Assembly: GCA_016218065.1 (NCBI GenBank)
Contig: JACRFA010000300.1
Span: 1-33,065 of the forward strand
Source of the DNA: Ignavibacteriota bacterium
GTDB lineage: Bacteria; Bacteroidota; Ignavibacteria; UBA10030; UBA6906
Direction: 5' to 3'
Length of the DNA stretch: 33,065 nucleotides
Position numbers and translations under genes: made by a program. Shown in pieces: positions 18,083 to 30,803 of this stretch; the first letter of the stretch is position 1; every line of letters starts with the position of its first letter. The notes beneath the pieces were generated by a model. That model saw only the letters and a program-made list of their open reading frames with translations. It did not search any database and was not told the origin of the DNA.

Positions 18083-18184
18083 TCTCACAAGGTTTCTCTG
18101 CGATGAACCTTGTATCTTCTCTTCCGCTTTTATCGCGTCCTTTGGGTCTTTGCGGTTCACATCCTCCGGTGCAAACGAACCGCG

Positions 18185-19243
18185 ATGACGCCAAGGTATT
18201 CATCCAACCGCTATGGCGCGATGAACGCTATAAGCGGTCATATCGTTCGTCAAGTAAAGAAAGTCATCCACGTGAATGAAGCTGTCTTTCTGAAAATCAA
18301 TGCCGACGATTGGAGGCGAATTGAATCTTCGCTCGAGACGCCACATCTGCTCAACCCGGATGACTTGAGCGCACTGTATCTTCGCCTGACGGATGATCTC
18401 GCCTGGGCAAAAACGTTTTACCCGCACAGCAAGACAACACAATATCTGAATACTCTTACGTCGCGCATTCATCAGAGAATTTACAAGAACAAAAAGGAAC
18501 GACGCGGCAGGCTGAAGGACTTCTGGCTCAGGGAGTGGCCGGCTCTGATGTACCGCCACAGGAAGCAGATGTTCTATTCCCTCCTCGTCACCATAATCTT
18601 TACGGCCGTTGGCGCTCTCTCGTCAGCCAACGACAAATCGTTCGTCCGGATGATTCTTGGCGACGCGTATGTGAATATGACGTTGGAGAATATCAAGCAT
18701 CACGACCCTATGGCCGTGTATAAGCAGATGAATGGCACCGACATGTTCTTTGGAATCACGCTCAACAACATCAGAGTTTCTTTCCTGGCATTCGCCTCGG
18801 GAATTCTTTTTTCATTCGGGACTATCGTTGTTCTTCTTCAGAATGGCATCATGCTCGGGACATTTCATTACATGTTCTACGAGCAGAACATGCTGGGCGA
18901 CGCGATGCGAACGATATGGATTCACGGCACGCTCGAGATTACGGCAATAGTCGTCGCCGGCGGCGCGGGCATGGTGATGGGCAACAGCATTCTTTTCCCC
19001 GGGACCTATAGCCGTCGCGTGTCGTTCGCGCGCGGCGCGCGCAACGGCATGAAGATCGTCGTCGGGCTGGTCCCCGTTTTTATCTGCGCCGGCTTTCTCG
19101 AAAGTTACGTCACGCGGCAAACCGATATGCCGCTGATGCTCAACATCGCGATCATCGGCGGATCAGTTCTTTTTGTCCTCGGCTATCTGATTCTTTTTCC
19201 GCTCGCGGTGAAAAATCGTACTGCTCTTACAACCGACACATAA
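18185..19243 (+). CDS. SpoIIM-family (DUF95) integral membrane protein
   Basis: About 352 residues. ATG 18185 and ATG 18221 are both possible starts; neither has a clear ribosome site. After a soluble helical lead (VNEAVFLKINADDWRRIE, the usual start of the family), about five transmembrane helices follow: MFYSLLVTIIFTAVGAL, VSFLAFASGILFSFGTIVVLL, a helix near HGTLEITAIVVAGGAGM, GLVPVFICAGFLESYV and IIGGSVLFVLGYLILF. The motif NNIRVSFLAFASGI and the HGTLEI...GAGM segment are characteristic of SpoIIM proteins. Outside spore formers these sit beside MoxR/DUF58/RDD genes, as here, with unknown function, perhaps scaffolding membrane assembly. It is the first gene of the cluster. Confidence 0.9.
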   Translation: MTPRYSSNRYGAMNAISGHIVRQVKKVIHVNEAVFLKINADDWRRIESSLETPHLLNPDDLSALYLRLTDDLAWAKTFYPHSKTTQYLNTLTSRIHQRIYKNKKERRGRLKDFWLREWPALMYRHRKQMFYSLLVTIIFTAVGALSSANDKSFVRMILGDAYVNMTLENIKHHDPMAVYKQMNGTDMFFGITLNNIRVSFLAFASGILFSFGTIVVLLQNGIMLGTFHYMFYEQNMLGDAMRTIWIHGTLEITAIVVAGGAGMVMGNSILFPGTYSRRVSFARGARNGMKIVVGLVPVFICAGFLESYVTRQTDMPLMLNIAIIGGSVLFVLGYLILFPLAVKNRTALTTDT

Positions 19244-19258
19244 GGAGAAAAACCACAC

Positions 19259-20104
19259 ATGCAACCCATGCAACCATTGACGGAAATACCGATGCGCTTT
19301 GAGTTCTATCGGGCAAGAGATTTTGGCGACACGCTCAGCGCGACATTTACGTTTCTCCGGCAGGAGTTTGTTCCTTTCGGAAAGATTCTTGTGTACATCC
19401 TTGGCCCGCTGCTTATTGTTTCGGTCATCGTGGAACTCTTCTTTCAAGCTCCTCCCGAGGAAGCGCTGACGGGTCCCTATTGGGCTGGCGTGGGTTTGCT
19501 GCTGGTTGTTACACTCATGCAGCAGGTTGTGTTGGCGTTGATCGTCAACCACTACATTCGCTTGTACATTGCCAACGATGAATCGCGCTTCGATCCAAAG
19601 GCAATGGTTGGGTATTGCGCCGAAACGTTTTGGAGAATTGTCGGCGTCGAGATTCTTCTTGGCCTGATGCTCGGTCTCGCGTTTCTCCTCCTTATTGTGC
19701 CCGGCGTGTACCTGTCCATCTCTTCGTCACTGCTTGTGACGGCTGCGATTCAGGAAGATTGTCCGTTTAGTGATGCTTTGGCCAGAAGCACGCAGTTGAT
19801 AAAACAATATTGGTGGTACACACTCGGTCTGATCATCATCGTTTCGATCATCATGTACATTTTTCAACTGGTTCTGTTTGCCCCAACGTTTGTGATGAGC
19901 TTCGTAACGGCAATGCACGGCTTTACTGAAAGTACTGATACTGTATGGGTGAAGGCGGCTCAGGCCGTGGGCCATCTTGCAACGTTCTTTTACGTCATTC
20001 CGTTGGTGGCCCTGGTGGTCCATTTTTACAGCCAGATCGAAAAGAAGGAAGCTGCCGGGTTGGAACGAAAAGTCGCAAGCCTCGATGGCCTCGCCGAGGG
20101 ATAG
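19259..20104 (+). CDS. Polytopic membrane protein, unknown function
   Basis: 281 residues, ATG 19259 (or 19268) after AAGGAG. About six hydrophobic segments are visible: ILVYILGPLLIVSVIVEL, AGVGLLLVVTLMQQVVLALIV, VEILLGLMLGLAFLLLIVPGVYL, WYTLGLIIIVSIIMYIFQLVLF, and one near FFYVIPLVALVVHFYSQI. The LLIVPGVYLSISSSLLVTAAI...DALARSTQLIKQYWW region resembles membrane domains of the glycerophosphodiester-phosphodiesterase-associated type. It ends one base before the DUF4129 gene and belongs to the SpoIIM-to-RDD operon. A role as a membrane partner of the MoxR system is inferred from place only. Confidence 0.8.
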   Translation: MQPMQPLTEIPMRFEFYRARDFGDTLSATFTFLRQEFVPFGKILVYILGPLLIVSVIVELFFQAPPEEALTGPYWAGVGLLLVVTLMQQVVLALIVNHYIRLYIANDESRFDPKAMVGYCAETFWRIVGVEILLGLMLGLAFLLLIVPGVYLSISSSLLVTAAIQEDCPFSDALARSTQLIKQYWWYTLGLIIIVSIIMYIFQLVLFAPTFVMSFVTAMHGFTESTDTVWVKAAQAVGHLATFFYVIPLVALVVHFYSQIEKKEAAGLERKVASLDGLAEG

Positions 20105-20105
20105 G

Positions 20106-20816
20106 ATGCTCGCAACGCGGACGATGATGCGGCTTGCCGCTTTCCTCTTTGTCATGATGAGTGTTGTGCCGACCGTGCATGGCGCCGAAGCGCGCGACAG
20201 CGTTCAACAACGACGCTTCGACAGCCAACGCCTGGAAAAACTTCGCACCGACCCCGACTTTGCATACGATGCGCCGCGGTTCAGCGGGAACAATGCACTC
20301 AACACGCTGATTGCGGACTTGCGTGCTCGGGTGTTTCAATATCTGTTCGAGCACACCACGGAAGGATTCTGGCACGCAACGCTGCTGTTGCTCGCGCTGG
20401 CCGCACTCGCGTATTCGCTCCGCTTCTTCTTCGGATCGAGCGTAAGCCCATTATTCTCCGCGGCAGGTAAACCGTTCGACTCCGGAAATTTCTCTGAACA
20501 CGAGATATTGGAAACCGATCTCGACGCGATGCTGCGCGAGAACTTGAAAACAGGCGCGTACCGCGACGCAGTCAGAGTTTTATACTTGATGAGTTTGCGT
20601 CTCCTATCCGACAACAACCGCATCGCGCTGCGCGACGGCAAAACAAACAACGACTATTGCCGCGAACTTGATCGCCCGCTGCAACAGCCGTTTGCCGACG
20701 TGACCCGGATCTTCGAGTATGTTTTCTATGGTCAGTTCGACGTCGACGCGGACGCTTTCCACGCAATCCACGGAGAATTCGAAAAGTTGGAGAAGCTGAT
20801 CGGAGAGCGCGCATGA
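20106..20816 (+). CDS. DUF4129 family protein
   Basis: 236 residues, ATG 20106 one base after the previous stop; longer in-frame starts overlap the upstream gene and are unlikely. The order is: signal peptide (MMRLAAFLFVMMSVVPTVHG), a short periplasmic part, one membrane helix (about residues 91-110, ATLLLLALAALAYSLRFFF), and a C-terminal cytoplasmic DUF4129 domain with AYRDAVRVLYLMSLRLLSD, the Asn-rich turn KTNNDYCREL and IFEYVFYGQFDVD. DUF4129 is widely linked with MoxR, DUF58 and transglutaminase-like genes, and may pass a signal from periplasm to the ATPase. It overlaps the next start by four bases. Confidence 0.85.
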   Translation: MLATRTMMRLAAFLFVMMSVVPTVHGAEARDSVQQRRFDSQRLEKLRTDPDFAYDAPRFSGNNALNTLIADLRARVFQYLFEHTTEGFWHATLLLLALAALAYSLRFFFGSSVSPLFSAAGKPFDSGNFSEHEILETDLDAMLRENLKTGAYRDAVRVLYLMSLRLLSDNNRIALRDGKTNNDYCRELDRPLQQPFADVTRIFEYVFYGQFDVDADAFHAIHGEFEKLEKLIGERA

Positions 20817-21979
20817 GGAGGTTTCTTCCATTGCTTCCGCTCGTAGCTGTCCTCGTTCTGATGACGCTTCTCGAAATGCTGAAGCCGAAGCCGCTCGATT
20901 GGACGCCCAGCTTTTCCTCCTTCGAGAAAATTCCCTGGGGCACGTATGCTCTGTATGAAATGCTTGACGACCTCTTCTCGCGCGATTCGATTCGGTTGAA
21001 TACGAACTCGCTGTATGAATCTCTCGACACGGAAGAGGCATCCTCCCATCAGAACATTATTATCATTGCCGAACGCTTTCACCCGGATGAACTCGACGCC
21101 ACCACCTTGTTGGAGTTTGCGGCAATAGGAAACGACGTCTTTCTCGCCGCCGAGTTTTTCTCGCCGTCGTTCCAGGATTCGCTTGGATTCTCCATCAAGC
21201 CCGACTACACGATACCCGATTCGGTCGTCTGTATGCTGGAAGGTGACTCGGCGCAGTACCCGTCGAAAGTTTCGGGATTGCCGTGCTTCTTTGCCGAGTT
21301 TGATACGGCCAATACGCAGGTGCTTGGCACGGACGGCAAGAACAAACCCATATTCCTTCGCACACACTACGGCGCCGGATTCGTGTATCTTCACTCTGTG
21401 CCCTGGGTGTTTACGAACTACAACTTCCTCAAGAACGGTAACGATCGATACGTCGGGGCAGCTTTATCGCATCTTGCTTCCGGTCCGACTATTTGGGATG
21501 AGTACTACAGAGACGTGCGCAACGAGGTACGGTCGCCTCTCGCGTTTGTTCTCAGCAAGGCGGCCCTCTCGTGGGCGTATGTCACTGCGCTTGTCGGTGT
21601 TCTGCTGTTCGTGGTCGTCGAAGGAAAGCGAAAACAACGGATCATTCCGGTGTTGCCGCCATTGCGGAATGAGACACTGAGTTTCGTGGACACGCTTGCG
21701 CGGTTGTATTTCCACAATGCCCACCACAAAGATGTTGCGGTGCGCATGCGTCTCTATTTCTTTGACTTCGTTCGAAGTCGCTACAACATTGGAACGGAGC
21801 GGCTCGACGATGCATTCATCAGCACTCTCAGCAATAAGTGCGGGATGATACAGGATGACCTGCGCCGGCTGGTCGGTGCAATGACAGCGCTCGACGCGCA
21901 CCATGATCTCGCGACAAAAGAACTCATGCGGTTGAACAAACACCTGGAACACTTCTATGAACAATGCAGAAAGATATGA
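20813..21979 (+). CDS. DUF4350 family membrane protein
   Basis: 388 residues, ATG 20813, four-base overlap with DUF4129 and a GGAG site. An N-terminal signal anchor (LPLLPLVAVLVLMTLLEML) is followed by the DUF4350 region, beginning SFSSFEKIPWGTYALYEMLDDLF. That region has a Rossmann-like periplasmic sensor look (NIIIIAERFHPDELDATTLLEFAAIGNDVFLAAEFF). A second membrane helix is near ALSWAYVTALVGVLLFVVVEG (about residues 250-275). A cytoplasmic helical tail follows (LPPLRNETLSFVDTLARLYFHNAHHKDVAVRMRLYFFDFVRSRY). This topology is normal for the family, which lies next to MoxR and DUF58 in many phyla. No enzymatic activity is known. Confidence 0.85.
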   Translation: MRRFLPLLPLVAVLVLMTLLEMLKPKPLDWTPSFSSFEKIPWGTYALYEMLDDLFSRDSIRLNTNSLYESLDTEEASSHQNIIIIAERFHPDELDATTLLEFAAIGNDVFLAAEFFSPSFQDSLGFSIKPDYTIPDSVVCMLEGDSAQYPSKVSGLPCFFAEFDTANTQVLGTDGKNKPIFLRTHYGAGFVYLHSVPWVFTNYNFLKNGNDRYVGAALSHLASGPTIWDEYYRDVRNEVRSPLAFVLSKAALSWAYVTALVGVLLFVVVEGKRKQRIIPVLPPLRNETLSFVDTLARLYFHNAHHKDVAVRMRLYFFDFVRSRYNIGTERLDDAFISTLSNKCGMIQDDLRRLVGAMTALDAHHDLATKELMRLNKHLEHFYEQCRKI

Positions 21980-21982
21980 TGA

Positions 21983-22960
21983 ATGATGCCACCGACGTTT
22001 GAATCAAGAATAGATCTTGCGCCGCTCGAACAACAAGTGCGGGCGATCCGTGAAGCGGTAAGTCGAGTTATCGTCGGACAGCAAGAAATGATCGACCTCA
22101 TGATCGCCGCCTTTCTCATGAAAGGTCACGTCCTCATCGAGGGCGTTCCGGGAATTGCGAAAACACTCGCCGCACGCGCTCTTGCTTCATGCACCGACGC
22201 GGGGTTTTCCCGGATTCAGTTCACCCCGGATCTTATGCCCTCGGACGTCATCGGAACATCGGTGTTCAATTTGAAAACGTCGGACTTCGCTTTTCACGCC
22301 GGCCCGATCTTCTCCAATGTGATCCTTATTGACGAGATCAATCGCGCTCCCGCCAAGACGCAATCTGCATTGTTTGAAGTGATGGAGGAGCGTCAAGCGA
22401 CTGTCGATGGAACGACGTACGCGATGGCGCAACCCTTCATCGTGATGGCGACGCAAAATCCCCTTGAGCATGAGGGAACGTACAAACTACCTGAAGCACA
22501 GCTCGACCGCTTTGCGTTCAAGATCATCGCGCACTATCCCGGATTCGAAGAAGAGATTGAGATTCTTCAGCGATTCACGACGCGTTCGGTGGAAGCCGAG
22601 CTAAAACGTGTGCAGCCGGTTCTTGCCAAGGCAGAGTGGCTGCGACTGCAGGAATTGGTTCAGCAGGTGCGCGTGGAACCGCAGCTCCTGAACTACATTG
22701 CGCGCATTATTCGCGACACGCGGCAACACCATGCTCTCTATCTCGGCGCCTCGCCGCGGGCAGGTCTTGCCGTCATGAACGGCGCCCGCGCGTGGGCTGC
22801 AATGCACGGGAGGGATTTCGTCACTCCCGACGATATCCGGACGATTGTGGTTCCTGCCCTTCAGCATCGCCTGCTGCTTACGGCAGAAAAAGAAATGGAA
22901 GGACTGACTGTGTCAAAAGTTCTCAGCCAGATTCTTGATCAACTCGAAGTTCCGCGCTAG
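21983..22960 (+). CDS. MoxR-family AAA+ ATPase
   Basis: 325 residues, full length. Walker A GVPGIAKT (54-61), Walker B ILIDEIN (114-120), sensor 1 ATQNP (156-160) and the LDRF arginine (Arg176) are all present, with GRP-like and Q-D-F segments as in MoxR proteins. These ATPases form hexamers that act as chaperones inserting metal or cofactors, or activate vWA-domain partners, in the cytoplasm. The ATG at 21983 (a second ATG follows directly) is just after the DUF4350 stop. Its partner vWA-like protein is encoded next. Its stop codon lies inside an inverted repeat that extends over the start of the DUF58 gene. Confidence 0.96.
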   Translation: MMPPTFESRIDLAPLEQQVRAIREAVSRVIVGQQEMIDLMIAAFLMKGHVLIEGVPGIAKTLAARALASCTDAGFSRIQFTPDLMPSDVIGTSVFNLKTSDFAFHAGPIFSNVILIDEINRAPAKTQSALFEVMEERQATVDGTTYAMAQPFIVMATQNPLEHEGTYKLPEAQLDRFAFKIIAHYPGFEEEIEILQRFTTRSVEAELKRVQPVLAKAEWLRLQELVQQVRVEPQLLNYIARIIRDTRQHHALYLGASPRAGLAVMNGARAWAAMHGRDFVTPDDIRTIVVPALQHRLLLTAEKEMEGLTVSKVLSQILDQLEVPR

Positions 22961-23061
22961 GGACGTGGACGAAAACTCTCATTGTCCCGTGTGCTCCAGC
23001 TGATTCTTGCATACAATGAAACCAGAATCTCGGAACGGCTACTTCTCGTCCACGTTCCTAG
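22957..23061. repeat. Long inverted repeat spanning the moxR stop and DUF58 start
   Basis: CTAGGGACGTGGACGA (22957-22972) and TCGTCCACGTTCCTAG (23046-23061) are complementary at 15 of 16 positions; the odd pair is G-U in RNA, so a 16-bp stem can form with a 73-base loop. The left arm includes the MoxR stop codon. The loop holds the DUF58 start at 23016, and the right arm lies within its first codons. Confidence 0.7.
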
Positions 23062-24392
23062 TGGAATTCCTTCGTAGCTTCTATTTGTCGCGACGGTTCT
23101 TCGCGGTAGTGGCCGCGCTTGTCGCGGGGTTCATCCTCGCGCAGCTTCTATCGGCGCTGCTAGCACCAATGCAAACCGCAGTGCTTTTGCTGAGCGTGTT
23201 GGCGGCACTTGATGCGCTGCTGCTGTTCCTGCCGCGCGGTTCGGTGAAGGCGACACGGTTGGTTCCGGAAAAACTGTCGATCGGCGATCCGAACTCGATC
23301 ACGATTACCATCGTCAACAATTACCGGTATGGGTTGAGCGGGATTGTCATCGATGAAGTGCCGGCGGTTTTTCAGATACGCGACTTCCGTCTGCCATTTT
23401 CCCTTGCATCGGGTAAAAGCATTGCACTGACCTACACGCTTCGTCCGTTGCAGCGCGGCGACTATGTCTTCGGTGCAGTGAATGTGTTTGGTTCGACGCC
23501 GCTCGGTTTGGTGCGAAGACGTTATCGGTTTGATCAGGAGGCGCACTGTTTGGTCTATCCGTCTATCGTGCAAATGCGTAAGTATGAGCTGTTCGCGATC
23601 TCAGACCGGCTCACGGAAGCGGGCGTCAAAAAAATTCGTAGATTAGGACACACGTTCGAGTTCGACCACATTCGGAACTACGTCCGCGGCGACGACCATC
23701 GCTCCATCAACTGGAAAGCAACTGCACGCCGACAGAAAGTGATGGTGAACCAGTTTCAGGACGAAAAGGCGCAGCAAGTGTTTTCCGTTCTGGATATGGG
23801 TCGCAGCATGAAGATGCCGTTCAATGGATTGAGCCTGCTCGACTATGCAATCAACGCGAGTCTCGTCATCAGCAATATCGCAATCCATAAACATGACAAA
23901 GCCGGACTTATTACGTTTGCGCAAGATGTTCAGAGCATGCTTCCCGCAAGCTCGCAGTATGGTCAGATGCATCGCATCTTGCACACTCTCTACATGCAGC
24001 ACACTCATTTTCTCGAATCAGATATTGAGCGGCTGTGCGCAGTGATTTCTCACCAGGTGAAGCAGCGGAGTTTACTGCTGCTGTTTACGAATGCAGAAAC
24101 TCTTGTTGGCATGCAACGACGCATGATTGCGCTGAAGCGGCTGAACAGGAGCCACACACTCGTCGTTATCATGTTCGAGAACAGCGAGCTTTCCGCGATG
24201 GTTGAGCAACACGCAAAGAATGCCGAGCAGGTGTATGCGAAAATGGTTGCGGAAAAATTGATGCACGAAAAGCGGCAGATCGTCAAAGAATTGCACCTTC
24301 ACGGCATTCAAAGCATGCTCGTCGCGCCGGACCAATTGACCATCGAAACAATCAACATGTATCTTGAATTGAAAGCGCGGGGTCTGGCTTAG
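23016..24392 (+). CDS. DUF58 (vWA-like) membrane protein
   Basis: 458 residues from ATG 23016, which has no obvious ribosome site; an in-frame TTG lies at 23007. Two hydrophobic helices (about residues 29-50 and 53-72, FAVVAALVAGFILAQLLSALL) anchor a soluble part. The DUF58 signature is complete: LGHTFEFDHIRNYVRGDDHRSINWKATAR (Asp226-Arg229 within it), followed by VLDMGRSM (Asp260 and Ser264), a MIDAS-like metal site of a von Willebrand A fold. Such proteins are the usual partner of MoxR ATPases, here one gene upstream. The 22957/23046 inverted repeat could control how much DUF58 protein is made relative to MoxR. Confidence 0.92.
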   Translation: MKPESRNGYFSSTFLVEFLRSFYLSRRFFAVVAALVAGFILAQLLSALLAPMQTAVLLLSVLAALDALLLFLPRGSVKATRLVPEKLSIGDPNSITITIVNNYRYGLSGIVIDEVPAVFQIRDFRLPFSLASGKSIALTYTLRPLQRGDYVFGAVNVFGSTPLGLVRRRYRFDQEAHCLVYPSIVQMRKYELFAISDRLTEAGVKKIRRLGHTFEFDHIRNYVRGDDHRSINWKATARRQKVMVNQFQDEKAQQVFSVLDMGRSMKMPFNGLSLLDYAINASLVISNIAIHKHDKAGLITFAQDVQSMLPASSQYGQMHRILHTLYMQHTHFLESDIERLCAVISHQVKQRSLLLLFTNAETLVGMQRRMIALKRLNRSHTLVVIMFENSELSAMVEQHAKNAEQVYAKMVAEKLMHEKRQIVKELHLHGIQSMLVAPDQLTIETINMYLELKARGLA

Positions 24393-24400
24393 GGGCAACA

Positions 24401-25132
24401 ATGAACGACATGGAAACCATCGCGATATCGACGACACAGAACATTGACCTGGAATACGAGCTTGCCGGTGTCGGCGACCGCGTTCTGGCTGCGCTGATCG
24501 ATATCACTGCCCAGGCCGCGTATTTGTTGTTGATGTTCTTTTTTGCAATGATCGCCGGCGTTGAGAGTCTGTGGGTTTCTGTCGTCATCTTCCTCCCGGT
24601 GTTTTTGTACGAGGTCCTGATGGAAAGCGTCTTCAATGGGCAAACGCTCGGCAAGATGTCGCGACGCATTCGGGTCATTCAGGTCAGCGGCGCGGCGCCA
24701 ACCGTGGGAAGTTATCTCCTTCGATGGCTGATTCGAATGCTGGAAGTATCGGCGAGCTTCGGAAGCGTCGCTCTCCTTGTGTTGCTCATTAACGGCAAGG
24801 GCCAGCGTTTGGGAGATTTGGCAGCCGGGACAACAGTCGTGCGCTTGCGTCGGGCGGTGGGCCTTGACGAAACGATCTTGACGAGCGTTGCCGAAAATTA
24901 CAGACCGCAGTTTCTGGCAGCCGATCGTCTCACGGAGCGCGATATCGAAATAGTGAAGGAGGTTCTCCGAACGAATCCTGAAGCAGAGGATACCGTTGCC
25001 ATACGCAACCGTCTTGAAGAGAAGTTGCAAGCGATCATCGAGAAGAAGCTGGACATTCAGAGCAACATGCCCGCAACACTTTTTCTTGAGACAATCGTGA
25101 AGGACTACAATTCTCTGAAAGGAAGGCTTTGA
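24401..25132 (+). CDS. RDD-family integral membrane protein
   Basis: 243 residues, ATG 24401 after TAGGGG. The RDD domain is clear: AGVGDRVLAALIDITAQAAYLLLMFFF (the Arg-Asp-Asp-like start, here Asp-Arg...Asp), FLPVFLYEVLMESVFNGQTLGKMSRRIRV, and GKGQRLGDLAAGTTVVRLR at the end of the membrane part. Three transmembrane helices are visible. An extra cytoplasmic helical tail (about 95 residues) follows, ending in EEKLQAIIEKKLDIQSN. RDD proteins are common beside SpoIIM and MoxR genes; some are implicated in ion transport but this one has no assigned substrate. Its stop overlaps the TTG start of the HipA-like gene. Confidence 0.9.
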   Translation: MNDMETIAISTTQNIDLEYELAGVGDRVLAALIDITAQAAYLLLMFFFAMIAGVESLWVSVVIFLPVFLYEVLMESVFNGQTLGKMSRRIRVIQVSGAAPTVGSYLLRWLIRMLEVSASFGSVALLVLLINGKGQRLGDLAAGTTVVRLRRAVGLDETILTSVAENYRPQFLAADRLTERDIEIVKEVLRTNPEAEDTVAIRNRLEEKLQAIIEKKLDIQSNMPATLFLETIVKDYNSLKGRL

Positions 25133-25926
25133 AACCCACACTTCGCACCGTCACTGTCACGCGCTACGTAACGCCGCTGCGCGAAGGAAGCTCTCTGCCC
25201 GCAATTGTGGAGGCGGATGATGACGGACTGTATGTGCTGAAGTTTCGCGGCGCGGGGCAGGGCACGAAGGCGTTGATTGCCGAGCTGCTCGCCGGCGAAA
25301 TTGCCCGCGCCATCGGTCTGCGTGTTCCGGAAATCGTCTTTGCCAACCTCGACTCCGAACTGAGCCGCCTCGAACCCGACCCGGAAATTCAGGAGTTGCT
25401 CAGCGCGAGCGCCGGACTGAACCTCGCGCTCGACTATCTCCCCGGCTCCGTCACGTTTACTCCCCTGGCGATGCCTGTCGATGGAACGCTGGCGTCGCGC
25501 ATTGTGTGGTTCGATTGCTTCGTCACCAACGTCGATAGAACGCCGCGCAACGTGAACATGCTGGTCTGGCACAAGAACATCTGGCTGATCGATCATGGGG
25601 CCGCGCTCTACTTCCATCATGCGTGGAGGGGTTGGGAAGAACAGGCGCGCAGTCAGTTTTCGCGAGTGAGCGATCACATTCTGCTGCCGCACGCATCGGA
25701 GCTTCAGGCGATCGACGCTGAGCTGCGACATTATCTCACCGCGGATAAGCTCGACCGGATTGTCGCGCTGATTCCCGATGACTGGCTGCACGGAAATGCG
25801 TTCGGCCAGCATGATCTCTCCGCTCACGACAAGCGCGATGTGTACAAGATGTTTCTGCGAGAGAGACTTGCAACATCCACCATCTTCGTTCAGGAGGCTT
25901 TGCGTGCCCGAGAAACACGTGTTTGA
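25129..25926 (+). CDS. HipA-like (HipA_2) kinase-fold protein
   Basis: 265 residues from a TTG at 25129 that overlaps the RDD stop (TTGA), with GAAAGGAAGG just before it. The fold is the compact HipA-like kinase: a nucleotide-binding lysine in LYVLKFRGAGQGTKALIAE (Lys38), then WFDCFVTNVDRTPRNVNML with Asp136 and Asn141 as catalytic-loop residues, then IWLIDHGAAL with Asp155 as the metal-binding DFG-type aspartate. HipA kinases phosphorylate a protein (GltX for E. coli HipA), but the short HipA_2 type has no known target. No HipB-like antitoxin is present; instead a DUF3037 gene overlaps its 3' end by 23 bases. All key kinase residues look intact. Confidence 0.88.
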   Translation: MKPTLRTVTVTRYVTPLREGSSLPAIVEADDDGLYVLKFRGAGQGTKALIAELLAGEIARAIGLRVPEIVFANLDSELSRLEPDPEIQELLSASAGLNLALDYLPGSVTFTPLAMPVDGTLASRIVWFDCFVTNVDRTPRNVNMLVWHKNIWLIDHGAALYFHHAWRGWEEQARSQFSRVSDHILLPHASELQAIDAELRHYLTADKLDRIVALIPDDWLHGNAFGQHDLSAHDKRDVYKMFLRERLATSTIFVQEALRARETRV

Positions 25927-26287
25927 ATACGCCATCGTGCGCATTGTGCCGCGTGTCGAGAGGGAAGAGTTTCTGAATGCCGGCATTGTGCTGTGTTGCG
26001 CTGAGCTGGAGTTCCTGCGCTCGTCGTTCGCGCTGGATGAGTCGCGGCTTCGTGCGTTGAACGCGGACATAAGCATTGCGGAGATTCACAGTCAGCTCGA
26101 AGCTTTCGAGCGCATCTGCGCAGGAGGAAAAGATGCGGGCGCGCTGGGTGTGTTGCCGAGGGGCGAACGGTTCCGATGGCTCACGGCTCCGCGCAGCACA
26201 ATCATACAAACATCGCCCGTGCATACCGGCTTCTGCAGCGATCCGCGTGAACGATTGACGCATCTGGTTGAAACGCTTGTGAAGTAG
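25904..26287 (+). CDS. DUF3037 protein, partner of the HipA-like kinase
   Basis: 127 residues from GTG 25904, with AGGAGG seven bases upstream; the start lies inside the 3' end of the kinase gene in another frame. The protein opens FEYAIVRIVPRVEREEFLNAGIVLCCAELEFL and continues with DESRLRAL and a C-terminal FRWLTAPRSTIIQTSPVHTGFCSDP. This is the DUF3037 pattern, a small alpha/beta protein that I know mainly as a neighbour of short HipA-like kinases. Its stable adjacency implies joint function, perhaps as substrate, inhibitor or adaptor of the kinase, which is not established. The 290 bases that follow contain no gene I can support. Confidence 0.85.
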   Translation: MPEKHVFEYAIVRIVPRVEREEFLNAGIVLCCAELEFLRSSFALDESRLRALNADISIAEIHSQLEAFERICAGGKDAGALGVLPRGERFRWLTAPRSTIIQTSPVHTGFCSDPRERLTHLVETLVK

Positions 26288-26577: not shown

Positions 26578-27681
26578 ATGACAAAGAAGACTAAGATCAC
26601 CTTCATCGTTGCCGGGGTTGTTTTGGTGGGATTAGCGATTCCGAAACTCATCCTACCCGGAAAGACTAACCAGGCGAATGGCGCCGGCGCGGGTCAGCGA
26701 GATGGACGGCTCTCGGTGCGAACTGTTGTTGTTCAACCCGAACGTCTGCGCGATCGCGTGGAAACAGTCGGCACGATTCTCTCGAATGAAGAAGTGGAGG
26801 TGCGACCGGAAATCTCCGGACGAATCGTGCGTCTTTCGTTCAAGGAGGGTGGACGCGTAGCCAAAGGTCAACTGCTGATCAAGATCAACGACGCCGACCT
26901 GAAGGCGCAACTGATGCGCGCCGAGGCGAGTCTGAAGCTCGAACGCGAGCGCGAAGCGCGCATGAAAGCGCTCTACGAAAAAGATCTTGCCAGCAAGGCT
27001 GAGTACGACAACGTTGCGACCAATCTGAATCTTGCGGACGCCGAGGTGCGCTTGATACGAGCGCAGATTGCCAAAACAGAAATTCGCGCACCGTTCGATG
27101 GGAACATCGGTCTGCGCTTCGTGAGTGAAGGAAGCTACGTTACCCCGACGACCGCGATCACGACGCTGCAGAATCTCGGCGTTGTGAAAATCGACTTCGC
27201 AATTCCCGAACGGTATGCGGGCAGCTTCGCGATCGGCGACAAAATTTCGTTCAGCATTCAGAATTCTCCGCGTACGTTCAGCGGCGCCGTCTATGCCATC
27301 CAACCGAAAATCGATCCGACAACGAGAACGCTTCGCTTGCGCGCGCTGAGTCCGAACAAAGAGGGCGCGTTGCTGCCCGGCTCGCTCGCGTCGGTTGAAG
27401 TGTCGATGCGAGAAAAGAGCGTGCTGATGATTCCAGCGTACGCAATCATACCGGAGTTGAAGGGGCACAAGGTGTTTCTCTTCAAAAACGGCAAGGCCGA
27501 GCAGCGCAACGTGGACACAGGCACCCGCACCGAAGACAAGATTGAAATCACCGGCGGACTTTCTGCAGGCGATACAGTGATTACGTCGGCGATTCTACAG
27601 ATTCGTCCCGGCATGTCGGTGCAGCTCGCGCGGCCTGCGTCGCAGCAATCCATGAAGGCCAACGGAGACTCGGCGCTATGA
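26578..27681 (+). CDS. RND efflux periplasmic adaptor (membrane fusion protein)
   Basis: 367 residues, ATG 26578 without a good ribosome site. A single N-terminal membrane helix (ITFIVAGVVLVGLAIPKLIL) with no lipobox cysteine anchors it. The order of domains is the normal one: lipoyl-like half VGTILSNEEVEVRPEISGRIVRLSFKEGGRVAKGQLLIKIND, alpha-hairpin (about residues 105-165, LKAQLMRAEASLKLEREREARMKAL), second lipoyl half EIRAPFDGNIGLRFVSEGSYV, beta-barrel and membrane-proximal domains (TRTLRLRALSPNKEGALLPGSLASVEV). It bridges the RND pump to an outer-membrane channel. It overlaps the pump start by four bases. No TolC-like gene is in the window, so the channel must be shared. Confidence 0.94.
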   Translation: MTKKTKITFIVAGVVLVGLAIPKLILPGKTNQANGAGAGQRDGRLSVRTVVVQPERLRDRVETVGTILSNEEVEVRPEISGRIVRLSFKEGGRVAKGQLLIKINDADLKAQLMRAEASLKLEREREARMKALYEKDLASKAEYDNVATNLNLADAEVRLIRAQIAKTEIRAPFDGNIGLRFVSEGSYVTPTTAITTLQNLGVVKIDFAIPERYAGSFAIGDKISFSIQNSPRTFSGAVYAIQPKIDPTTRTLRLRALSPNKEGALLPGSLASVEVSMREKSVLMIPAYAIIPELKGHKVFLFKNGKAEQRNVDTGTRTEDKIEITGGLSAGDTVITSAILQIRPGMSVQLARPASQQSMKANGDSAL

Positions 27682-30600
27682 GTCTCTCGGCAACCTGCAT
27701 CCGGCGGCCCGTACTCACGATCGTGTTGTCGAGTATCGTTGTGCTCTTCGGGATCATCGGATTCACGTACCTCGGGGTGCGTGAGTTTCCGAATGTCGAT
27801 CCTGCCGTCATTTCCGTCAACACAACATACGCAGGCGCTAACGCCGACGTTATCGAATCGCAAATCACCCAGCGTCTCGAAGAAGCCGTCACCAGCGTGC
27901 CGGGCATCAGAACACTTTCCTCGGTCAGCCGCGAAGGCCGAAGCACGATTACGATCGAGTTCGAGCTTGAAGTTGATCTGGAGACCGCGGCGAACGATGT
28001 GCGCGACAAAGTTGCCGGCGCTGTTGGCAATCTGCCGCCCGATGCCGATCCGCCAGTTGTGTCCAAAGCAGACGCCGACGCGAGTCCGATTATCGTGATG
28101 AACGTGAGCAGCAACTCGCGCAACCTGCTTGAGCTGAGCAGCATTGCGGACAAGGTGTTCAAGGAACGGCTGCAAACAATTCCGGGCGTGAGTGAAGTGC
28201 GCATCTTCGGCGAGAAGCGCTACTCGATGCGACTCTGGATGGATCAGCAGAAGCTCGCGGCCTATCAGCTTTCGCCGCTCGATGTGCGCGCGGCGTTGAA
28301 TGCCGACAACATCGAGCTTCCGGCCGGACGCATCGAAGGAAACGATGTTGAGCTGACCGTGAGAACGCTGAGCCGGCTTGAGAAGCCGGACGAGTTCAAC
28401 AATCTGATCGTCCGGCAACAGGACGGGCAGATTATCCGCTTCAGCGATGTTGGCCGCGCCGAACTCGGGCCCGAAAACGAGCGACAGGTTTCCAAAGGTC
28501 TTGCAGGCCCGCGCGTTGCCGTCGCGATTGTGCCGCAACCCGGTTCGAATCACATTGCCATCGCCGACGAGTTCAACAAGCGCATCGAACACATCAAGAA
28601 GGATCTCTCCGACGATATCGAGTTGAGCATCGGGTTCGACACGACGAAGTACATTCGCACATCAATTGAAGAAGTGCGGGAGACGATTGTCACGGCGTTT
28701 GTTCTTGTCGTGCTCATCATTTTCCTGTTCCTGCGCGATTGGCGGACGACGCTGATTCCCGTGTTTGCAATCCCCATCTCGCTAATCGGAACATTCTTCA
28801 TCATGTATCTCGCTGAGTTTTCTATCAACGTGCTAACGTTGCTGGGCATCGTGCTCGCGATCGGTATGGTGGTTGATGATGCAATCGTCGTCCTCGAGAA
28901 CATCTACGCGAAGATTGAAGGCGGGATGAATCCGATCGAGGCAGGACTCAAAGGATCGAAGGAAGTCTTCTTTGCCGTCATCTCGACAACGATTGCGTTG
29001 ATCGCCGTCTTCATGCCGATTGTGTTTTTGCAGGGATTGACGGGACGGTTGTTCAAAGAGTTTGGCGTTGTGATCGGAGGGTCGGTGGCAATCTCGGCGT
29101 TTATTGCGTTGACCCTGACGCCGATGCTGAGTGCGCGCATGATCAAGTCGCATCAGAAGCACAGCAAGTTTTATGTTGCGACGGAGCCATTCTTTGCGCG
29201 CCTGGCATCGACCTACGAGCGTGCGCTGGGGGCGTTTCTTGAGAGACGCTGGTTGGGATTTGTGGCAATCGTCGGTTCGGCAGCGTTGGTCTGGCTGTTC
29301 ATGACGCTGCTGCCGCAGGAGTTGGCTCCGCTGGAGGATCGGAGTCGCTTCCGTATGACATCGACGGCCCCGGAAGGAACATCGTTTGAGCGAATGGATG
29401 CGTATATGGATCGGCTGGTTGACGTTGTGCGCGAGCGTGTTCCTGAAGCCGATGCGGTGATCGCGAATACATCCGGCTTTGCCGGCGGGGCAAACTCCGG
29501 CGTCACAACCGTGACGCTTGTATCCCCCGGGCAGCGGGAACGTACGCAGCAAGAAATCACTGAGGATCTCTCGCGATCGGTCCGCAACCTGAACGACGCG
29601 CGCACATTTGTCTCGCAGGAACAAACCATCAGCGTTGGCGGCGGCATGGCGCGCTTTGGGTTGCCGGTGCAGCACGTGATTCAGGCGCAGAATTTCGAGA
29701 AACTGCGCGACGCGTTGCCGAAGTTTCTTGAAGCAGCCGACAACAATCCGGTGTTTAGCGCGGTGGACGTGAACCTGAAGTTCAACAAGCCGGAGCTGGT
29801 GATCAACATCGACCGCGACCGCGCTCGCACGCTCGGCGTTTCCGTCAGCGACATCGCGCAGACGCTGCAGCTCACCTTGAGCGGCCAGCGTTATGGGTAC
29901 TTCATCAAAGACGGGAAGCAATATCAGGTGATCGGCCAGTTAACGCGGGCCAATCGCGATGAGCCGTTGGATCTGAAAACGATTTTTGTGCGAAACGCCT
30001 CCGGTCAGGTGATTCAGATCGATAATCTCGTCACCGTGTCAGAGCAGGCGAATCCGCCGCAGCTCTATCGCTTCAACCGCTACATCTCCGCGACGGTTTC
30101 TGCCGGACTTGCGCCGGGCTACACGCTGGGAGACGGAATCGAAGCAATGGATGAAATTTCCTCGAAGGTCTTGGACGAATCGTTCACGACCTCGCTGTCG
30201 GGTGCGGCCCGGGATTTCGCAGAGAGTTCTTCGAGCTTGCTGTTTGTGTTTGTGCTCGCGCTGCTGCTCACGTACTTGATTCTCGCCGCGCAGTTTGAGA
30301 GCTTCCGCGATCCGTTCATCATCATGTTCACTGTACCGCTCGCGGTGGGCGGAGCGCTTCTCTCGCTCTGGTACTTCAATCAGACATTCAACATCTTCAG
30401 CCAGATCGGGATGATTATGTTGATTGGTTTGGTGACGAAGAATGGCATTCTCATCGTCGAGTTCGCGAATCAGCGCAAGGCAACTGGACTTTCGGTGACG
30501 GAAGCCGTGAAGAGCGCCGCGGCTGCGCGCTTCCGTCCGATTCTCATGACGAGTCTCTCGACCATCCTCGGCATTCTCCCGATTGCGCTCGGCCTCGGCG

Positions 30601-30803
30601 CAGGATCCGAAAGCCGCGTGTCGATGGGTATTGCCGTCGTTGGCGGCATGATTTTCTCGGGCGGACTCACGCTGTTTGTCATTCCGGCCATCTACTCATA
30701 CTTCTCGAAGGAGCGAACGGCGGAGCAAACGGAGATTGAGCACATGCAGCCGAGCGGAGTCGAAAAAGAGAAGCTGCTTCTGGGTGAAGCGGGGAAGGGA
30801 TAG
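27678..30803 (+). CDS. RND-family inner-membrane efflux transporter (AcrB/MexB type)
   Basis: 1041 residues, ATG 27678, a full-length proton-driven pump of the hydrophobe/amphiphile efflux group. The N-terminal helix region is followed by VREFPNVDPAVISVNTTYAGANADVIESQ, the typical porter start. The proton relay is intact: GIVLAIGMVVDDAIVVLENI (Asp400/Asp401, matching Asp407/Asp408 of AcrB) and GLVTKNGILIVEFAN (Lys921, matching Lys940). The two-fold repeat of porter loops and twelve helices is evident. Substrates cannot be told from sequence. It forms an operon with the adaptor. No local repressor gene is visible. Confidence 0.96.
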   Translation: MSLSATCIRRPVLTIVLSSIVVLFGIIGFTYLGVREFPNVDPAVISVNTTYAGANADVIESQITQRLEEAVTSVPGIRTLSSVSREGRSTITIEFELEVDLETAANDVRDKVAGAVGNLPPDADPPVVSKADADASPIIVMNVSSNSRNLLELSSIADKVFKERLQTIPGVSEVRIFGEKRYSMRLWMDQQKLAAYQLSPLDVRAALNADNIELPAGRIEGNDVELTVRTLSRLEKPDEFNNLIVRQQDGQIIRFSDVGRAELGPENERQVSKGLAGPRVAVAIVPQPGSNHIAIADEFNKRIEHIKKDLSDDIELSIGFDTTKYIRTSIEEVRETIVTAFVLVVLIIFLFLRDWRTTLIPVFAIPISLIGTFFIMYLAEFSINVLTLLGIVLAIGMVVDDAIVVLENIYAKIEGGMNPIEAGLKGSKEVFFAVISTTIALIAVFMPIVFLQGLTGRLFKEFGVVIGGSVAISAFIALTLTPMLSARMIKSHQKHSKFYVATEPFFARLASTYERALGAFLERRWLGFVAIVGSAALVWLFMTLLPQELAPLEDRSRFRMTSTAPEGTSFERMDAYMDRLVDVVRERVPEADAVIANTSGFAGGANSGVTTVTLVSPGQRERTQQEITEDLSRSVRNLNDARTFVSQEQTISVGGGMARFGLPVQHVIQAQNFEKLRDALPKFLEAADNNPVFSAVDVNLKFNKPELVINIDRDRARTLGVSVSDIAQTLQLTLSGQRYGYFIKDGKQYQVIGQLTRANRDEPLDLKTIFVRNASGQVIQIDNLVTVSEQANPPQLYRFNRYISATVSAGLAPGYTLGDGIEAMDEISSKVLDESFTTSLSGAARDFAESSSSLLFVFVLALLLTYLILAAQFESFRDPFIIMFTVPLAVGGALLSLWYFNQTFNIFSQIGMIMLIGLVTKNGILIVEFANQRKATGLSVTEAVKSAAAARFRPILMTSLSTILGILPIALGLGAGSESRVSMGIAVVGGMIFSGGLTLFVIPAIYSYFSKERTAEQTEIEHMQPSGVEKEKLLLGEAGKG

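Follow-up and report, generated by a model that had tools for sequence, protein, structure and literature searches.

Described systems that combine a HipA-like kinase with DUF3037

Among the closest described relatives of the locus analysed here is HipAD/DS-6 (PDC-M66), in which a HipA-like kinase is encoded together with a DUF3037-DUF1829 protein. Defence was lost when a predicted catalytic residue of its kinase was mutated, and a complex of its A and B proteins has been predicted with AlphaFold3 (Science 2026, PMC13092281). The HipAD publications cover only this long form, whose partner of ~280 amino acids consists of DUF3037 and a C-terminal domain. A second example is the HipA/DUF3037 pair of Retron-Sda1, in which protection against phage Bas51 depends on the kinase, deletion of the kinase abolishes defence, and removal of DUF3037 is toxic (PLoS Biology 2025, PMC12548924). 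The HipBA and HipBST modules likewise join a HipA-like kinase to a small partner, and the survey of hip kinases by Gerdes et al. (2021) mentions no DUF partner (PMC8262856).

An earlier note on our locus had proposed a candidate for an undescribed regulatory or toxin-antitoxin-like unit. The toxin-antitoxin-like reading fits, and the co-occurrence of the two genes could hardly be stronger, but the unit is not undescribed: it already figures in PADLOC as the candidate defence system PDC-M66A/B, which the pair matches, and its long relatives have been published as HipAD/DS-6 and in Retron-Sda1.

The gene pair

The window is a stretch of 33,065 nucleotides from an Ignavibacteriota bacterium (contig JACRFA010000300.1). 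Its features of interest are the following.

24401..25132, + strand: RDD membrane protein gene (PF06271), which closes the MoxR/DUF58 operon lying upstream; a neighbour, outside the kinase/DUF3037 unit
25129..25926, + strand: HipA_2 family protein kinase gene, 265 aa, TTG start (PF20613)
25892..25897, + strand: AGGAGG ribosome-binding site for the DUF3037 gene, within the kinase gene (sequence reading)
25904..25926, + strand: kinase/DUF3037 gene overlap, 23 nt (sequence reading; recurs in 94 of 111 loci)
25904..26287, + strand: DUF3037 protein gene, 127 aa, GTG start (PF11236)

The kinase start codon (TTG, 25129-25131) lies within the RDD stop codon (TGA, 25130-25132), forming a stop/start overlap, and the DUF3037 gene begins with GTG at 25904-25906, upstream of the kinase stop at 25924-25926. 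A perfect AGGAGG inside the kinase gene precedes this GTG with a spacing of 6 nt, and most of the homologues listed carry a purine-rich sequence at the same position. Both start codons, their placement and the AGGAGG had been read correctly in the earlier note.

The kinase belongs to the HipA_2 family (Pfam PF20613, E = 5e-21), with an intact lysine, catalytic Asp and Asn and a metal-binding Asp, and it also matches PADLOC PDC-M66A (E = 1.5e-26). The residues Lys38, Asp136, Asn141 and Asp155, previously reported as intact, occupy the catalytic positions and do not vary across 77 homologues. Its AlphaFold2 model (pLDDT 94.9) is closest to the solved folds of CtkA, PI4K II-alpha and the Fam20 kinases; HipA is not among the best Foldseek matches. 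Like HipT, the kinase is short and lacks the added N-terminal subdomain. It also matches phrog_3162, a PHROG family of unknown function, which points to relatives in phages or prophages.

Over its full length, the partner is a DUF3037 protein (Pfam PF11236, E = 7e-44). Its residues 6-75 align with positions 3-72 of the 281 positions of the PADLOC model PDC-M66B, the rest of the model being unmatched. At 127 amino acids, it thus lacks the C-terminal half that is present in HipAD/DS-6, as well as the C-terminal region that in the Retron-Sda1 protein resembles a type III retron DNA-binding protein. The DUF3037 model (AlphaFold2, pLDDT 95.2) resembles no solved structure (best E = 1.4), and a likeness of its fold to HipS, HipB or any other solved protein was rejected on this comparison. 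Against viral models it gave only weak matches (best TM 0.63). R20, E22, N25, S98, Q102 and H107 are conserved positions of the DUF3037 protein. At the sequence level, phrog_5137, another PHROG family of unknown function, matches the DUF3037 protein and likewise points to relatives in phages or prophages. The entry IPR022542 is presumably that of the differently numbered DUF3730. A paper on plants (PMC6711988) places DUF3037 in Focadhesin/RST1 under IPR022542, and this was set aside as a likely misprint.

No HipB-like gene adjoins the pair, in line with the earlier note. In contrast to HipBA, whose antitoxin HipB has a helix-turn-helix domain, and to HipBST, the locus has neither HipB nor HipS; its partner is encoded after the kinase, and no solved structure is related to it. 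It shares with HipAD/DS-6 the gene order, with the HipA_2 kinase immediately upstream of DUF3037, as well as overlapping or abutting genes and the same Pfam families. With the Retron-Sda1 pair it shares the organization as a stand-alone two-gene kinase and DUF3037 unit, although that pair accompanies a retron and the pair in the window does not.

Conservation of the pairing

In a sample of 392 genomes drawn from the phylum Bacteroidota, one of which matches a contig of Runella aurantiaca without a difference across 12,378 bases, a HipA_2 kinase adjoins 68 of the 68 short DUF3037 genes and 18 of the 22 others. The GTDB collection yielded 80 loci, spread over Bacteroidota, Myxococcota, Chloroflexota and a single Comamonas record, and in every one of them the kinase lies upstream of DUF3037. 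Across 111 loci from several phyla, the overlap of the two genes is exactly 23 nt long in 94 and 11 nt long in a further 11, a count that includes some related or identical genomes. Because of this complete adjacency and exact overlap, the pairing is more than chance, and the kinase and DUF3037 form a real, widespread two-gene unit. The neighbourhood survey that had been suggested as a check thus bears out the co-occurrence of the two genes.

The MoxR/DUF58 operon is an incidental neighbour

Upstream of the pair, Pfam identifies RDD, DUF58, MoxR (AAA_3), DUF4350 and DUF4129 proteins; the operon as a whole (18110-25132) comprises SpoIIM-like, DUF975-like, DUF4129, DUF4350, MoxR, DUF58 and RDD genes. 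An HlyD-like and AcrB-like efflux pair lies immediately downstream (26578-30803). The stop/start overlap with the RDD gene could suggest that the pair works with this envelope operon and that the kinase regulates it, and the join described in the earlier note is indeed real in the window. It is not conserved, however. A MoxR gene is found near the pair in only one of 80 other loci, no neighbour family besides the pair itself occurs in more than nine of the 80, and the neighbours vary freely. Since the upstream gene lies on the opposite strand in 33 of 76 loci, transcription of the pair must often start from a promoter of its own.

The two congeneric genomes agree with this picture. In one of them (G002), the pair sits among unrelated genes; in the other (G001), the third member of the genus, it is absent. 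Neither has a close copy of the MoxR of the window (best identity 44%), and its RDD protein has no match in either. From the placement of the pair in the first genome and its absence from the second, the join to MoxR/DUF58 is particular to the genome of the window and incidental. On this neighbourhood survey a functional link was rejected, and regulation of the operon by the kinase appears scarcely credible.

The same comparison bears on whether the copy in the window is left over from a defence system that is decaying. Its rarer start codons (TTG and GTG) and the patchy distribution of the pair within its own family would agree with decay. Both frames are intact, however, with all conserved residues present, and the copy in the sister genome G002 is intact as well, at 69% (kinase) and 65% (partner) identity. 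We therefore regard decay as very unlikely.

A chromosomal short-partner clade

The lengths of the DUF3037 partners split cleanly. Twenty long-form genes encode 274-372 amino acids, while nearly all short-form genes, delimited with a simple gene caller and allowing for start choice, encode 124-139. The short-form kinases fall into a single branch (support 93/95, 96% of bootstrap trees), separate from those of the long form, and the kinase of the window, which belongs to this separate clade, is only 29% identical to a canonical long-form kinase. In the Bacteroidota sample, short-form kinases compared pairwise have a median identity of 60%, as against 26% for long-form kinases.

Among the Bacteroidota sampled, short pairs outnumber long ones; they are near-core in some groups and occupy few chromosomal sites. 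Counted by DUF3037 match and open-frame length, the short pair occurs in 54 of 81 genomes of genus g109 and the long pair in 3; for the Runella family the figures are 80 and 10 of 101. In both groups the short form is mostly single copy. Among 22 short loci of g109, 11 have one common upstream neighbour and 5 another, a pattern suggesting that the pair is for the most part inherited vertically and has moved now and then.

The surroundings of the two forms differ as well. Type I restriction genes recur among the proteins flanking 20 long pairs, whereas no listed PADLOC family was seen twice among those flanking 20 short pairs. Unlike HipAD/DS-6, the short form lies on the chromosome, outside defence islands and almost entirely off mobile elements. 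It is present on only five to six of 72,556 plasmid records, at least one of which, from Parabacteroides, looks like a piece of chromosome, with pyrE, argH and other housekeeping genes on it. The short form was found in no phage records, nor were relatives found in viral contigs. The unit is real, conserved and known in outline; what is new, against the papers searched, is a distinct short-partner clade with one well-conserved kinase branch and a chromosomal lifestyle.

These properties lend weight to the explanation that the short form is a housekeeping signalling pair and not a toxin-antitoxin or defence system. DUF3037 would then serve the kinase as adaptor, substrate or regulator, and together they would tune a process in large-genome members of the Bacteroidota, Myxococcota and related groups. 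In its favour are the near-core, mostly single-copy distribution, the few chromosomal sites, the higher kinase identity, and the lack of recurrent defence neighbours together with the near-absence from plasmids and phages. The branches nearest the short clade, moreover, are HipA_2 kinases that stand alone, with no DUF3037 partner but with their active-site motifs intact, so that toxicity cannot be taken for granted in this branch of kinases. Such lone kinases were located at L181:2127-2942, L182:1583-2437, L189:1737-2570, L191:1958-2794 and L188:1865-2743.

Several observations speak against it. The kinase is toxic without DUF3037 in a long-form relative (PMC12548924), the pairing is strict, and absence from some close relatives, such as G001, shows that the pair is dispensable. 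On a Leptolyngbya boryana plasmid (L177:3257-3929), an 88-aa C-terminal remnant of the kinase lies behind transposase-like frames. DUF3037 is intact there and the 23-nt overlap is kept despite the decay of the kinase, a direction that fits a toxic kinase. On balance, we consider a housekeeping role a serious possibility, though not the probable one.

Proposed mechanism

We favour the reading, with a probability of roughly 60%, that the two genes encode a self-contained kinase-inhibitor module, a short-partner version of the HipAD/PDC-M66 kind. It is supported by the strict pairing, the 23-nt overlap, the invariant residues and the PDC-M66A/B matches, and further by the experiments on long relatives (PMC12548924, PMC13092281), the Leptolyngbya decay and the variable neighbours. 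Counting against this module are that those experiments all concern long-form relatives, the kinase of the window sharing only 29% identity with a canonical long-form kinase, and that a near-core distribution outside defence islands is unlike a typical mobile defence system.

In such a module, the kinase and DUF3037 would be co-produced from their overlapping genes, probably by translational coupling. By analogy with the long relatives, DUF3037 would bind the HipA_2 kinase and hold it off; as the core is common to the short and long forms, we infer that inhibition is the likeliest mechanism. Phage infection or another stress may lift the inhibition, upon which the freed kinase would phosphorylate a cellular target and growth would stop. 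The analogy with HipA makes a translation factor a candidate target. The MoxR/DUF58/RDD operon would be a chance neighbour with no part in this mechanism. The short form makes up a separate chromosomal clade, passed on mostly by vertical descent, so what triggers it and what it serves may not be the same as for the long form in defence islands.

Implications

Two different lifestyles seem to share one kinase–partner core, since the short form is the commoner one in the sampled Bacteroidota and is inherited like a near-core gene. Tentatively, and with the odds against it, the short clade could have been domesticated from a family of phage-defence kinases and inherited vertically, or else be the chromosomal form ancestral to the defence form; it would then act as a two-protein phosphorylation switch with a physiological role in Bacteroidota, Myxococcota and other phyla. 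This raises the question of whether a standing regulator of the cell arose from a toxin used in defence or gave rise to one.
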